A stretch of DNA of 64,000 nucleotides from Sphingomonas sp. IBVSS2 (GTDB lineage: Bacteria; Pseudomonadota; Alphaproteobacteria; Sphingomonadales; Sphingomonadaceae). This document shows positions 8,184-12,319 of the stretch, piece after piece. Position 1 is the first letter of the stretch. Each line of letters starts with the position of its first letter. The position numbers and the translations under genes are program-made. Under the pieces are notes generated by a model that saw only the letters and a list, made by a program, of their open reading frames with translations, searched no databases and was not told where the DNA came from. The stretch spans positions 869,592 through 933,591 of the forward strand of contig NZ_NFUR01000001.1 in assembly GCF_002127225.1 (NCBI RefSeq), written 5' to 3'.

Positions 8184-8393
8184 GTCCTGCTCCCCTTGTG
8201 ACCGTGCAGCGGAATAGCGGCGGCGCGGCGCGAGGCAAGGGTGAGGAGGCGGTTCAAGAAAAGCGTAAATTGACTGTCAGCCACGACAAATATCGCATCC
8301 AACTATATTGGTTCTTTCGTCGATTGACGTCCCAATTGCGTTGGTGGAACCCAGTGTCATCGCAGACTTCCGCGAAGCTTGGGGGAAATTGTC

Positions 8394-10706
8394 ATGCATC
8401 TGACGCACAAGGCCGGCGAGCTGTCCGCGCGCCCTCTCAAATTCCTGGAGACCGACACGCTGGTGGTGCGCTGGATCGCGCAGGCGGCGGTCAATGTCGA
8501 GCTGTTCACCATCCCGCTCTACATGACCTCGCTCTATTCGATCACCGGCATGCACCCCATCACGAGCCAGGGGAACAGCTTCTACAAGGGCCGGCAATGG
8601 CCGGGCGCCAAGACGAGCGCGAGCTTCGAGCACAAGCCCGGCAAGAAGGGCTGGGGCAACAAGAAGGCGTTCAACATCGTCTTCTCGGTGTTCATCCAGG
8701 AGATGCTGCATCTCCAGATGGCGGCCAATCTCGCCACGTCGATCGGCGCCGTGCCCAGCTTCACCGCCACCGCGCTGCAGAGCGGCGATCATGGCTGGAC
8801 CTGCTACGGCCCCAAGCTGACCCGGATCCCCGGCGTCGTCGACCTGACGGACACCAACCGGTTCAAGGACGTGAAGGTGAATGTCGGCCCGCTCGACGAG
8901 GAGCGGATCAAGCTGTTCCTCGCCATCGAGCAGCCGCAGGAGACGGCCGAGAAGGACATCGTCCGCAACCAGGAGCGATATTTCCCCAAGGTCCCGTTCA
9001 AATACACGACCGTGGCGGAGCTCGACGCGCACATCCTGTTCGGCTCGATCGGCTATATGTACCAATGCTATCGCGACTATCTGCTGATCACCTATGAGGA
9101 CGGGTCGCGGCTCTGGGACCATGTGATGGACGCCTCGGGCCAGCAGAACGACCTGTTCAACAATTTCAGCTTCCCCGGCCATCCGATGCGCGAGTTCATG
9201 GGCTTCGAGACCACGATCGCGCTCACCGATCCCGAGATCGCGCTGAAACAGGCGCTCAACATGATGAACGCGATCACCGACCAGGGCGAAGGCGCCACGC
9301 TGGGCGCGCGCTATGACGACAAGGGCCAGCGGCTGAAGGACGATGCCGCCAAGCTCGTCCAGGGCGCGGTCAGCCCGCACTATTGCCCGGACCGCGATGC
9401 GCTCGCCTCCGACTATCCGAGCTATTCGCAGACCGGCAAGCTCATCCCCTCGTCCGATGCCGCGGCGCGCGCCGACAATGACGGCATCGACCATTACACT
9501 CGCTTCCGCGAGATCGAGGACATTCGCGGCAGCGGCGGGCTCGAGACCTGGGACCAGTCGCCCAGGATCGGCAAATGGACCGCGGCGGACCTGACCACCG
9601 AAGGCTATGATCCCAAGGACAATCCCTATGGCCTGGCCACGCCGGAGCAGATCGCCCATGCGCTCAACAGCCTGAAGAACGGCGCGGACAGTGCGGCCGG
9701 CTTCCAGAAGATGAGCCAGGCGGTGTGCGGCGCGATCAAGGGCGTCACCACCGTGCTCGACAGCTATTGGAACCCCGCCGGCGCCACCGTGTCCTTCCCC
9801 TTCCCGTCGATGGCGGGATCGGGCGACCGCATGTCGACCGCCTGGGCGGTGTTCGGCAGGACCCCGGACCTCTCGGTCGGCGTCGGCGAGCCGGATTCGA
9901 GCATCGTCAACCATGCCTGCCAGGGGCTCGACGTGGCGGAAGTCGGGGGCAAATGGGGCACCAACGCCTGCGCCCAGACGTCGATCTATCACACGTGCCG
10001 CGGCTCGAACCTGTGCAAGGGCCAGGGCGGCTGCGGCTTCGTCCAGCTCACCAGCGGCGGCGGCAGTTGCGGCGGGGCGAGCAGCGGCTGCGGCTCAGCC
10101 GCCTCCAAGACCTCGAACGCGCCCAAGGCCAACCCGGTCGCGGGCGGTGGCTGCGGCACGCAGACCGCAGTGAAGGGCGGCGGCTGCTCGGCGGTGACCA
10201 TGCGCACCTATGGCGGGCTGTGCGGCACGCCCACGCCTTCTCCCACGCCCACGCCGAGCGGCCCGATGTACACTGCGCCGAGCGACAATATCTGCGGCGG
10301 CTTCGGTGGCTGCGCGGTGCCGATCTCCGCGCTCCAGCTCTATCCCAAGGCGGGCACGATGGAGGTCTGGGCGCTGGTCGGCAGTTCCAAGCCGGTGCTC
10401 TGCGGCACGCCCAAGCCGACGCCGTCGCCCTCGGGCTGCGGGGCCCCGCAGGCCAAGGCGGACAAGAATCTGTGTGGCACCCCGTCGCCTTCGCCGTCGC
10501 CTACCCCCTCGGGCTGCGGCGCGCCTTCCTCGAAGAAGATCGCCACGATCGACTTCAAGGAAGGCGACAAGGTGGAGGACATCGCCTTCCAGGCCTTTGC
10601 CAAGGTCGTCGCCTACAAGGTCAATGGCGATCCGGACAAGCCGGTGGCGGGCCTGGTCCAGCAGGCGCCGAACGATCTGCGCCTGGCCTATCCGCCTTCG
10701 ACCTAG
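8394..10706 (+). CDS. Ferritin-like (VioB/iminophenylpyruvate-dimer-synthase type) protein with Cys-rich Pro/Thr/Ser repeat C-terminus
   Basis: 770 residues. The ATG at 8394 is chosen because GGGGGAA lies 8-14 bases upstream. Residues about 15-250 look like a ferritin-like four-helix domain: Glu36 in NVELFTIPLY and the E-x-x-H pair Glu103/His106 in IQEMLHLQM, as in the family that includes VioB. A middle region follows. From residue 509 on, 16 cysteines occur in about 200 residues (509, 526, 535, 541, 547, 559, 566, 587, 598, 610, 634, 640, 670, 682, 694, 708), including the dense core C-RGSNL-C-KGQGG-C (535-547) and three CGTP-(P/T/S) modules. No signal peptide is seen. The gene is followed after 13 bases by an MNIO (DUF692) gene and a DUF2063 gene, so the Cys-rich tail is a plausible MNIO substrate. 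That role is inference. Confidence 0.8.
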   Translation: MHLTHKAGELSARPLKFLETDTLVVRWIAQAAVNVELFTIPLYMTSLYSITGMHPITSQGNSFYKGRQWPGAKTSASFEHKPGKKGWGNKKAFNIVFSVFIQEMLHLQMAANLATSIGAVPSFTATALQSGDHGWTCYGPKLTRIPGVVDLTDTNRFKDVKVNVGPLDEERIKLFLAIEQPQETAEKDIVRNQERYFPKVPFKYTTVAELDAHILFGSIGYMYQCYRDYLLITYEDGSRLWDHVMDASGQQNDLFNNFSFPGHPMREFMGFETTIALTDPEIALKQALNMMNAITDQGEGATLGARYDDKGQRLKDDAAKLVQGAVSPHYCPDRDALASDYPSYSQTGKLIPSSDAAARADNDGIDHYTRFREIEDIRGSGGLETWDQSPRIGKWTAADLTTEGYDPKDNPYGLATPEQIAHALNSLKNGADSAAGFQKMSQAVCGAIKGVTTVLDSYWNPAGATVSFPFPSMAGSGDRMSTAWAVFGRTPDLSVGVGEPDSSIVNHACQGLDVAEVGGKWGTNACAQTSIYHTCRGSNLCKGQGGCGFVQLTSGGGSCGGASSGCGSAASKTSNAPKANPVAGGGCGTQTAVKGGGCSAVTMRTYGGLCGTPTPSPTPTPSGPMYTAPSDNICGGFGGCAVPISALQLYPKAGTMEVWALVGSSKPVLCGTPKPTPSPSGCGAPQAKADKNLCGTPSPSPSPTPSGCGAPSSKKIATIDFKEGDKVEDIAFQAFAKVVAYKVNGDPDKPVAGLVQQAPNDLRLAYPPST
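10221..10526 (+). repeat. Three CGTP-(P/T/S)n coding repeat modules
   Basis: In-frame repeats inside the Cys-rich gene start at 10221 (CGTPTPSPTPTPSG), 10401 (CGTPKPTPSPSGCGAP) and 10473 (CGTPSPSPSPTPSGCGAP). The last two end in SGCGAP. The first lacks the second cysteine and is separated from the others by a C-GGFGG-C segment. The modules read like extended linkers carrying paired cysteines. Confidence 0.85.
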
Positions 10707-10719
10707 GAGAAGGATCGCC

Positions 10720-11571
10720 ATGACGCTGCCCCGGCTCGGCCTGCCCAATCCCGGCGACGGGCTGGGGCTGCGCGAGGAGCATTTCCCGCACCTGATGTCG
10801 ACGCCCCCGGAATCCTGGGGCGTCGACTGGTTCGAGGCGATCACCGAGAATCTGCTCGACAATGCCGGCTATGGCATGCGCGTGTTCGAGCATGTCGCGG
10901 CGCACCGGCCGGTGGTGCTCCACGGCGTGTCGCTCTCGATCGGCAGCACCGCGCCGCTCGACATGGCCTATCTCGGCAAGCTGCGCGTGCTGGCCGAACG
11001 CTTCCGGCCGCTCTGGATCTCGGACCATCTGTGCTGGACCGGGGTGCAGGGCGTGAACAGCCACGACCTGCTGCCGATGCCGCTCACCGAGGCGGCGCTG
11101 GCGCATGTCGCGGACCGGGTGGCCCGGGTGCAGGATTTCCTGGGCCGACCGCTGATCGTCGAGAATCCGAGCACCTATCTCGAGTTCCGCGCCAGCCAGA
11201 TGCCCGAGGCGGAGTTCCTCGCCCGATTGTGCGAGGCGACCGGCTGCGGGCTGCTGCTCGACGTCAACAACGTCCATGTATCGAGCTTCAACCATGCGCA
11301 GGATCCGCTCGCCTATCTCGAGGCGATCCCGGCGGCGCATGTCGTGCAGGTCCACCTGGCGGGCCCGAGCGACCATGGCACGCACCTGATCGACACGCAC
11401 GACGCGCCGGTGCCCGATGCGGTGTGGCCGCTCTATGCCCGGGTATGGGAGCGCTGCGGGCCGGTCGCCACCATGGTCGAATGGGATGCCGCCATCCCCG
11501 AATTCGAAGTGGTCGCCGCCGAGCTCGCCAAGGCGCGGCGGGTGCGCGAGGGGCTGCCGCTTGCCGCCTGA
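10720..11571 (+). CDS. DUF692 multinuclear non-heme iron-dependent oxidase (MNIO; MbnB/BufB/TglH family)
   Basis: 283 residues, AGGAGAAGG ahead of the ATG, 13 bases after the Cys-rich gene. The family's TIM-barrel metal-binding positions are in place: His68 (LHGVSLS), Asp102/His103 (SDHLCW), Glu148 (ENPSTY), Asp181/Asn184/His186 (DVNNVHV), His212 (HLAG), Asp225/His227 (IDTHD) and Glu254/Asp256 (VEWD). Known MNIOs use two or three iron ions to rewrite cysteine residues in peptides, for example to oxazolone-thioamide or thiooxazole, or to excise carbon. Here the likely substrate is the upstream Cys-rich protein. The gene overlaps the DUF2063 gene. Confidence 0.93.
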   Translation: MTLPRLGLPNPGDGLGLREEHFPHLMSTPPESWGVDWFEAITENLLDNAGYGMRVFEHVAAHRPVVLHGVSLSIGSTAPLDMAYLGKLRVLAERFRPLWISDHLCWTGVQGVNSHDLLPMPLTEAALAHVADRVARVQDFLGRPLIVENPSTYLEFRASQMPEAEFLARLCEATGCGLLLDVNNVHVSSFNHAQDPLAYLEAIPAAHVVQVHLAGPSDHGTHLIDTHDAPVPDAVWPLYARVWERCGPVATMVEWDAAIPEFEVVAAELAKARRVREGLPLAA

Positions 11572-12319
11572 ACTCGCCGCGCTGCAGGACTGGATGCAGG
11601 AGGCGATCCTCGCCGCCTCGGACCGGGGTGCCCGCGCGCATGTCCATGGCGACAACCGGCTTACTGCCGAGGATCGGGTCCAGATCTATGCGCGCGGCTA
11701 TCGCCAGCGGCTGATCGAGTGCCTGGAGCGCGAATATCCCCTGCTCGCGGCGCTGGCCGGGCCGACCGCTTTCGGCCTGTTCGCCCAGGGCTATGTCGCA
11801 GCGCGGCCCTCGCGCAGCTACACGCTCTACGATTTCGGCGCCGGCTTCCCGGCATGGCTCGAGGCGTCGCGGCCGCCGGGCGGGGCGCAGGATGTCGGCG
11901 CCATCCCGGCCGCATTGGCGCGCATCGAGCGGACCAAGGCCGAAGTCCACCGCGCCCATGGAATCGAGCGCGACGCCCCGGCCTGGCCGGGCATGGATCC
12001 GGTGCTGGCCGAGTTGCTGGCGCTGGCCGCGACTCGGCGCTGGTATCGGCCGGACAGTGCCCGGTTGCTGGCGCTGCCCTTCGACTTCAGCGAGATGCTG
12101 GCCAGGGGCGAGCCGATCCCCCCGCGTTCGGAGCCGATGCTGCTCGCGGTCGCCCGCGCGCAGTATCGGATCGCCTGCCTGCCGCTCGAACCCTGGCAAT
12201 ATGACTGGCTGGCCGTGCTTCCGGAGGATCCGGCGCGCGCGGTGCCGCTGCCGGACGACGCGCGCATCTCGCTATGGCTGCCCTTCGCGGCGGCGCACGG
12301 GCTGGCGGCGCCGGGGTGA
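11561..12319 (+). CDS. DUF2063 partner protein (MbnC/BufC-like) for the MNIO
   Basis: About 252 residues. No ATG lies at the expected N-terminus. The TTG at 11561 (GAGGGGC upstream) gives the usual PPELAALQDW start and an 11-base overlap with the MNIO gene; the ATG at 11594 is the alternative. The family signature is clear: RVQIYARGYRQRLIECLEREYP, then FAQGYV, then the SYTLYDFGAGFPAWL segment. In characterised systems such proteins bind the leader or substrate and form a complex with the MNIO. The pairing strongly supports a functional modification system rather than a stray DUF692 gene. Confidence 0.85.
   Translation: MPPELAALQDWMQEAILAASDRGARAHVHGDNRLTAEDRVQIYARGYRQRLIECLEREYPLLAALAGPTAFGLFAQGYVAARPSRSYTLYDFGAGFPAWLEASRPPGGAQDVGAIPAALARIERTKAEVHRAHGIERDAPAWPGMDPVLAELLALAATRRWYRPDSARLLALPFDFSEMLARGEPIPPRSEPMLLAVARAQYRIACLPLEPWQYDWLAVLPEDPARAVPLPDDARISLWLPFAAAHGLAAPG

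Follow-up and report, generated by a model that had tools for sequence, protein, structure and literature searches.

The closest described counterparts of the locus reported here are the bufferin operons (bufA2-bufB-bufC), in which a Cys-rich precursor gene is followed by the genes of an MNIO (DUF692) and a DUF2063 partner, and the captophorins (Cu-associated peptidic thiooxazole metallophores), in which an MNIO-PME1 pair lies beside a Cys-rich substrate. All characterized MNIO-PME1 cases are described to install 5-thiooxazole and the products generally bind copper, which was also bound by a precursor fused to maltose-binding protein and co-expressed with its enzymes (PMC13097082). The mixed-valent di-iron cofactor of MNIOs and the role of the partner are the subject of PMC13419390, and DUF2063 (PME-type 1) partners are described to go with precursors carrying a Sec signal peptide (PMC12452194). 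Here we analyze a 64,000-nucleotide stretch of DNA from Sphingomonas sp. IBVSS2 (the window), in which a trio of genes at positions 8394-12319 of the plus strand encodes a ferritin-like protein with a Cys-rich tail, an MNIO and a DUF2063 protein.

MNIO substrates have also been reported as parts of larger proteins. Fusions comprise Buf1-cytochrome c-FGE-sulfatase, MerC-Buf1 and MerC-Buf2, EGKCG precursors reach 506 residues, and C-terminal Cys segments of TIGR04222 proteins were proposed as substrates (PMC12452194). A preliminary description of the present locus, made from its letters alone, had stated that the substrate in known systems is a separate short peptide, which is too strong in view of these cases. 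It had further called the locus a candidate new modification system; because domain fusions and protein-sized substrates are already published, we rather regard it as a variant of the bufferin/captophorin kind. We consider it likely that the trio is a modification system of this type whose substrate is a protein domain, the tail, and this reading explains the whole of the observations best.

A Ferritin-Like Protein with a Cys-Rich Tail Precedes an MNIO and a DUF2063 Gene

The first gene of the trio (8394..10706) encodes a putative MNIO substrate protein of 770 amino acids. A ferritin-like domain of the Pfam family PF12902 covers residues 30-309 (8481..9320; 80.2 bits against a cut-off of 22.3, E = 2.6e-22). 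Of its 20 cysteines, 16 are located at residues 509-708, in a stretch rich in Gly, Ser, Pro, Ala and Thr, and the tail (residues 500-716, 9891..10541) is probably disordered, since the AlphaFold model of the protein has a predicted local distance difference test score (pLDDT) below 50 at residues 502-646 and 663-712. The modeled tail of a shorter Caulobacter homolog also stays below 50. The model places a strand (714-721) and a helix (727-744) near the C-terminus, and this element, together with a conserved terminus ending in PPST, is encoded at 10533..10703.

The ATG of the MNIO gene (10720..11571; MbnB/TglH/ChrH family, PF05114, E = 3.5e-101) lies 13 bases past the TAG of this open reading frame (ORF). 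The gene of the DUF2063 partner (11561..12319, 252 aa; PF09836, E = 2.5e-18) follows directly with a TTG start at 11561 and overlaps the MNIO stop. The long ORFs flanking the trio on both sides lie on the opposite strand, the downstream one being convergent. The coordinates, the cysteine count and the Pfam matches agree with the gene content and spacing given in the preliminary description. A nearby short peptide as the real partner, which that description had named as a ground for refutation, was not found: with a 13-base gap within the trio and a convergent ORF downstream, the ORF list contains no short Cys-rich precursor gene inside or directly before the trio, and none of the plus-strand ORFs of at least 20 aa within 8184-8393 is Cys-rich. 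The genome itself has a single PF05114 gene and no match to BufA1 or BufA2, EGKCG-type precursors not having been searched there.

In Related Genomes the Tail Occurs as a Separate Protein Directly Upstream of the MNIO

In a search of 201 genomes of the genus, seven genomes with weak matches to the ferritin domain were found, all of which carry a split, four-gene set. Here, a PF12902 gene is followed by a separate Cys-rich gene directly upstream of the MNIO gene, and then by the DUF2063 gene. This order was observed in 8/8 split loci examined (seven genomes of the genus and one of another Sphingomonadaceae genus). In a search of 298 genomes of the family, the match in genome G291 is a split locus, while the match in G232 covers only Pro/Thr/Ser repeats and was read as unrelated. 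The PF12902 proteins of the split loci are tail-less and measure 514-545 aa in the five with a settable start. The Cys-rich proteins have 219-224 aa and 11-12 cysteines (no start codon was found for that of locus L140), the MNIOs share 55-61% with that of the window, and the DUF2063 partners were PF09836-positive in both loci tested with Pfam. The free form of the tail thereby sits in the position of a precursor, and no other observation speaks more strongly for the tail as the MNIO substrate than this interchange of a fused and a free form. The proposal of the preliminary description that the Cys-rich domain is a likely MNIO substrate fused to a putative metalloprotein is supported by this arrangement.

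Split and fused forms interchange. In G391, a gammaproteobacterial-type genome, both split proteins are present as one ORF, which matches the one with 46% identity over 489 aa (E = 1.7e-138) and the other with 60% identity over 202 aa (E = 4e-75). Further, the profile of the window-type tail aligned to that of the split Cys-rich proteins with an hhalign probability of 95.9 (E = 5e-9, 74 columns), and 40 column shuffles yielded probabilities of at most 1.0, the script with which they were run giving 96.5 for the unshuffled pair. By inspection, six cysteines (C509, C535, C541, C547, C634 and C640) are common to the fused, the Pseudoalteromonas (see below) and the split forms. The tail and the split protein also follow the same order of motifs by eye, namely H-x-C, N-x-C-A, H-x-C-x5-C-x5-C and N-x-C-x5-C-A-x-P-I. 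No signal peptide was seen by eye in the window protein or the split Cys-rich protein, no predictor having been run.

The tail shares a short motif with bufferin precursors. The BufA2 peptide of locus L103, one of those gathered from other genomes, and residues 535-547 of the window protein (9996..10034) both carry C-x-G-x-N-x-C-K-G-Q-G-x-C, with the Cys-Lys and C-x5-C features of BufA2-type peptides; the Lys is not kept in the Caulobacter homologs. All three split Cys-rich proteins tested matched the BufA2 model (E = 5.6e-5 to 0.0019), the best with 23.3 bits and below the 60-bit cut-off. The G391 tail (E = 0.004) and the L065 homolog (17.3 bits) were below this cut-off as well, and the hhalign match between a split protein and BufA2 was short (20 columns). 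The tail as a plain BufA2 domain was rejected, the hhalign match being confined to a 17-column motif. By size, the split Cys-rich protein would also fit adjamnio-I, a group of 122-293 residues with 8-21 Cys and no signal peptide, encoded directly before the MNIO (PMC12452194, Table 2). Adjamnio-I mainly has PME-type 2 partners, whereas the partners of the window and of the two split loci are PF09836-positive. This comparison is by description only, and an overlap with part of adjamnio-I is possible.

A search of 240 genomes of the class for further split loci gave four weak matches, which were read as BufA2-like peptides beside an MNIO (L144, L145 and L146) and a BufA2 locus (G328), so that these genomes yielded no additional split locus. 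In the L146 peptide, C-x5-C-x5-C occurs as two repeats and a terminal Cys is lacking, and its neighboring MNIO is 54% identical to that of the window; in L144, two tandem BufA2-like ORFs lie upstream of one MNIO.

An alternative is that unmodified cysteines or disulfides of the tail serve in metal binding, that the MNIO and DUF2063 protein act on another, unlinked substrate, and that the genes stand together only as members of a metal-stress regulon. In its favor, low-complexity tails of Cys, Gly and Pro are able to bind metal on their own. However, the genome has one MNIO and, for the precursor types searched (BufA1 and BufA2), no match, the tailed protein never occurs without an MNIO in the loci examined save at one contig end, the split Cys-rich protein takes the place of bufA immediately upstream of the MNIO, and the MNIOs of these loci form one clade apart from the EGKCG-linked clade (see below). 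We therefore regard this alternative as unlikely.

The Tail Cysteines and the Gene Order Are Conserved

A scan of genome_contigs yielded 27 loci with a relative of the whole protein, from Sphingomonas, Caulobacter and other Caulobacteraceae, an Acetobacteraceae bin, Trinickia and unassigned bins. The protein of Sphingomonas leidyi DSM 4733, a strain close to the source of the window, is 98% identical to the window protein. The preliminary description had set beforehand, as a test, that such homologs should lie beside DUF692 and DUF2063 genes, and both are found directly downstream in 26/27 loci, the exception (L017) ending at a contig edge; each of the 26 loci having the MNIO gave a tblastn match to DUF2063.

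Of the 27 loci, 23 were aligned with the window protein in alignment A1 (24 rows); L005, L007, L008 and L010 were omitted because they are near copies (alignment A6 additionally omits L003, L004 and L017). Eight tail cysteines (C509, C526, C535, C541, C547, C610, C634 and C640) are kept in 24/24 rows and C559 in 23/24. The other seven, located in variable Pro/Thr/Ser and GCG repeats, are kept in 5 to 11 of 24 rows. At the C-terminus, R763, L764, P767, P768, S769 and T770 are present in at least 90% of the rows. A Pseudoalteromonas replicon, one examined out of two matches, shows the same architecture, with 32% identity for the large protein, 56% for the MNIO and 29% for DUF2063.

As a control, PF12902 proteins were compared with and without the tail. 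Matches were found in 17 of 398 Pseudomonadota genomes, and the control set comprises 14, since three weak ones (L068-L070) were bacterioferritin-like by eye and left out. MNIO and DUF2063 genes adjoin 3/3 tailed proteins (the Sphingomonas sp. IBVSS2 genome, G543 and G391) and 0/11 tail-less ones, in stretches of 6.4-17 kb, two of which (L057, 6.4 kb, and L066, 7.7 kb) end early with their contigs. One further tail-less protein, that of L063 (L063:6186-8570, PF12902-type), carries a Cys-rich extension of another kind: this long C-terminal part includes two repeats resembling CDGSH iron-sulfur domains, the open frame has 22 Cys, and the stretch contains no MNIO. A search of the order around G391 (78 genomes) detected PF12902 in no genome beyond G391 and G360, phages gave no match, and a match on a Gloeothece plasmid was set aside, since this ferritin-like protein lacks the tail and neither the annotation nor a search of the stretch showed an MNIO.

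Within the genus, fused full-length loci were found in only 8/201 genomes, all eight with MNIO and DUF2063 matches, and we therefore consider the trio an accessory locus. This scarcity could be taken to favor an ordinary Cys-rich ferritin-like protein whose neighborhood is coincidence or recent hitch-hiking. Against this stand the 26/27 loci, the control (3/3 versus 0/11), the interchange of split and fused forms and the single MNIO clade. With nine tail cysteines kept in 23-24 of 24 rows in addition to the gene order, the tail and the layout are more than chance; the conservation of the trio led us to reject a chance neighborhood, to which we give almost no credence.

The MNIO Is of the BufB Type and Belongs to a Clade of Its Own

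The MNIO scored above the cut-off of the BufB maturase model NF050167 (MNIO_BufB; 341.5 bits, cut-off 310), and its phmmer matches included 3BWW, 8HCI/8HI7 and MbnB chains. Nineteen His, Asp, Glu, Asn or Cys positions are invariant in 66/66 aligned MNIOs including that of the window. PME-type 1 partners combine a DUF2063 domain with an RRE-type one and have about 250-260 aa; the DUF2063 protein corresponds to them by its PF09836 domain, its size and its place after the MNIO gene.

In phylogenetic trees, the MNIOs of the fused loci form one clade (98/94, tree 1), and so do those of the fused and split loci together (97/93, tree 2). In both trees this ferritin-linked clade lies apart from the EGKCG-linked clade and near the BufA1- and BufA2-linked MNIOs. 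Both trees are based on selected rows; of the other MNIO loci examined, which were the top scorers of a longer list, they include 29. Tree 1 was built without L003, L004, L005, L007, L008 and L010, L017 having no MNIO; tree 2 also lacks L012, L016, L018, L019 and L020, and L084 was unused as the same locus as L065. Because a motif script missed some, labels were set by hand for L072, L073 and L075 (BufA2), L080, L082 and L095 (BufA1), L077 and the ferritin-linked loci; five loci stayed unlabeled. In L077, the ORF upstream of the MNIO encodes a secreted-looking Cys/His-rich peptide (many Cys, His and Lys) unlike BufA1, BufA2 and EGKCG precursors. At L104:1471-1941, the BufA2 precursor is duplicated, comprising two units of six Cys each after a start resembling that of a lipoprotein; a 12-Cys class in PMC12452194 is similar.

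The residue after the catalytic Asp is Phe in 7/7 EGKCG-linked MNIOs, as described in PMC13097082, where Asp is described for BufB2. It is Asp in 5/7 split-type MNIOs.

The Ferritin-Like Domain Contains a Conserved Glu/His Set

A 12-row alignment of PF12902 proteins (six tailed and six of the 11 tail-less relatives) showed E36, E103xxH106, E179, Q297 and H367 to be invariant and E299 nearly so (window numbering), H367 lying just outside the PF12902 stretch. This set is consistent with a metal site, and the domain may therefore bind metal. The nearest solved fold in the PDB list was 3HL1 (CC_0557 of Caulobacter vibrioides; Z 23.1, rmsd 2.6, 280 aligned, model residues 9-494); the list is filled by this one domain and uninformative on the tail. 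CC_0557 and other tail-less PF12902 proteins share the ferritin-like fold, and the six aligned ones the invariant residues, but they have no such Cys tail and, in the 11/11 control loci (CC_0557's own locus is not among them), no MNIO.

PF12902 is also found in VioB, a biosynthetic enzyme. The large protein had been called VioB-type at first, which stands as far as PF12902 membership is concerned but not beyond: it matched no NCBIfam model up to E = 1, hence neither VioB (TIGR04492, iminophenyl-pyruvate dimer synthase) nor TIGR04222. A split-type relative matched the VioB model with 13.5 bits, below the cut-off of 1250.

The neighborhoods were compared by an all-against-all search of the ORFs of 18 representative loci, in which groups of four loci or fewer were not identified individually. 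Nine ORF groups are common to 8-18 loci, all of them inside the trio or covering it in other reading frames. Outside the trio, no gene family is common to more than 6/18 loci, and that largest group consists of unrelated ABC ATPases at different places.

These results bear on a further explanation, according to which the ferritin-like domain is an additional tailoring enzyme for a ribosomally synthesized and post-translationally modified peptide (RiPP) and acts on the MNIO product. The fusion would join the enzyme to its own substrate, and the peptide would be cut off and released. This would fit the separate ferritin-like gene upstream in the split form, the weak TIGR04492 match, given the PF12902 domain of VioB, and the conserved Glu/His set. 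However, neither a protease family nor an exporter family was seen repeatedly in the surroundings of the trio, and the C-terminal strand-helix element and PPST end are conserved, which argues that the tail stays part of a folded protein. We see this explanation as conceivable but doubtful.

Two features were observed upstream of the trio. The element ATTGACG (8322..8329, plus strand), a candidate promoter or regulator site, is located about 64 bases 5' of the start codon, at the same aligned position in 15/15 upstream regions (the window and 14 Sphingomonas-type loci); in a further alignment of 13 loci (Caulobacter-type and others), it was not seen in this form. Additionally, a large repetitive ORF, surface- or adhesin-like (1948 aa in L015), lies upstream of the trio in four of the 18 loci, all from Caulobacter (L015, L018, L019 and L021).

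Discussion

The trio shares with BufA2 operons the order precursor-MNIO-DUF2063, a BufB-type MNIO and a Cys motif, and with captophorins, here from the genes alone, an MNIO-PME1 pair beside a Cys-rich substrate. It differs from BufA2 operons in that the precursor is a protein of 657-789 aa or an approximately 220-aa partner of a ferritin-like protein with no evident signal peptide, that a ferritin-like domain is linked to it, and that the MNIOs form their own clade. Like the fusions in PMC12452194, it would combine an MNIO-substrate domain with another metal-related domain, but the partner domain is PF12902, and the main text of that paper makes no mention of "ferritin". TIGR04222 proteins are likewise large and MNIO-associated with a C-terminal Gly/Ser-rich Cys segment as the proposed substrate, but they are membrane proteins with a PME-type 2 partner or none, whereas here a ferritin-like protein is combined with a PME-type 1 partner. 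Fusions of MNIO-substrate domains are thus known, and one to a ferritin-like domain was not found in the literature searched. No publication joining MNIO, DUF692 or DUF2063 with ferritin was retrieved, supplements not being covered, so that an unnamed entry is possible. Two candidates were discarded: in the text of PMC8224329 "ferritin-like" occurs only in a reference, and in that of PMC7907618 "DUF2063" and "ferritin" occur unrelated to each other, in a passage on a DUF2063 gene and, separately, in passages on Dps.

We propose that the large protein would be made in the cytosol, where its N-terminal half would fold as the PF12902 helical domain with its metal-site-like residues. The MNIO and its partner, probably encoded on the same transcript, would recognize this protein and oxidize cysteines of the disordered tail to 5-thiooxazoles, most likely in the conserved C-x5-C-x5-C and C-x5-C clusters. 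By analogy with the characterized MNIO-PME1 products, the tail cysteines are probably turned into metal ligands. Once modified, the tail would supply soft ligands, for which Cu(I) is the most likely metal, and the ferritin-like domain would remain part of the same protein. Unlike an exported peptide, the product would be a metalloprotein of the cytosol with a role in metal buffering or redox reactions, a location suggested by the lack of a visible signal peptide.

Several observations weigh against a bufferin/captophorin-type system acting on the tail. The window tail gave no match to the BufA2 model (NF050166) at E up to 10, and its hhalign match to a six-sequence BufA2 alignment was weak (probability 12.8, 17 columns). 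The DUF2063 protein was below the cut-off of the HvfC model (NF050145; 25.4 bits, cut-off 142). Next to the catalytic Asp, on its C-terminal side, 18/19 fused-type MNIOs (L006 by eye) have Ala and that of G391 has Gly, and not the Asp of BufB2, so that site selection may differ. C526 and C610, two of the nine conserved tail cysteines, have no counterpart in Pseudoalteromonas. As no neighbor family is common to more than 6/18 loci and that group is a mixture of ABC ATPases, the neighborhood gives no hint of copper. Finally, in the light of the association of PME-type 1 partners with Sec signal peptides (PMC12452194), substrate recognition would have to differ here, and we take this departure as a reason for both caution and interest.

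More tentatively, the protein may be a metalloenzyme with its own enzymatically built ligands: thiooxazoles made by the MNIO in the tail would hold copper beside a dinuclear ferritin-like site, either within one protein or, for the split form, in a dedicated complex of two proteins. This could be a cytosolic mixed-metal oxidase or a metal store, unlike the exported bufferins.

If the bufferin/captophorin-type reading is true, MNIO chemistry would extend beyond exported peptides and include a large metalloprotein that is apparently cytosolic. The natural pair of split and fused forms makes the MNIO modification of protein domains in nature testable, as well as the recognition by DUF2063 proteins of substrates without signal peptides. 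It would also help to approach the function of one PF12902 branch, for which the nearest solved relative found (3HL1) bears no description beyond "ferritin like".

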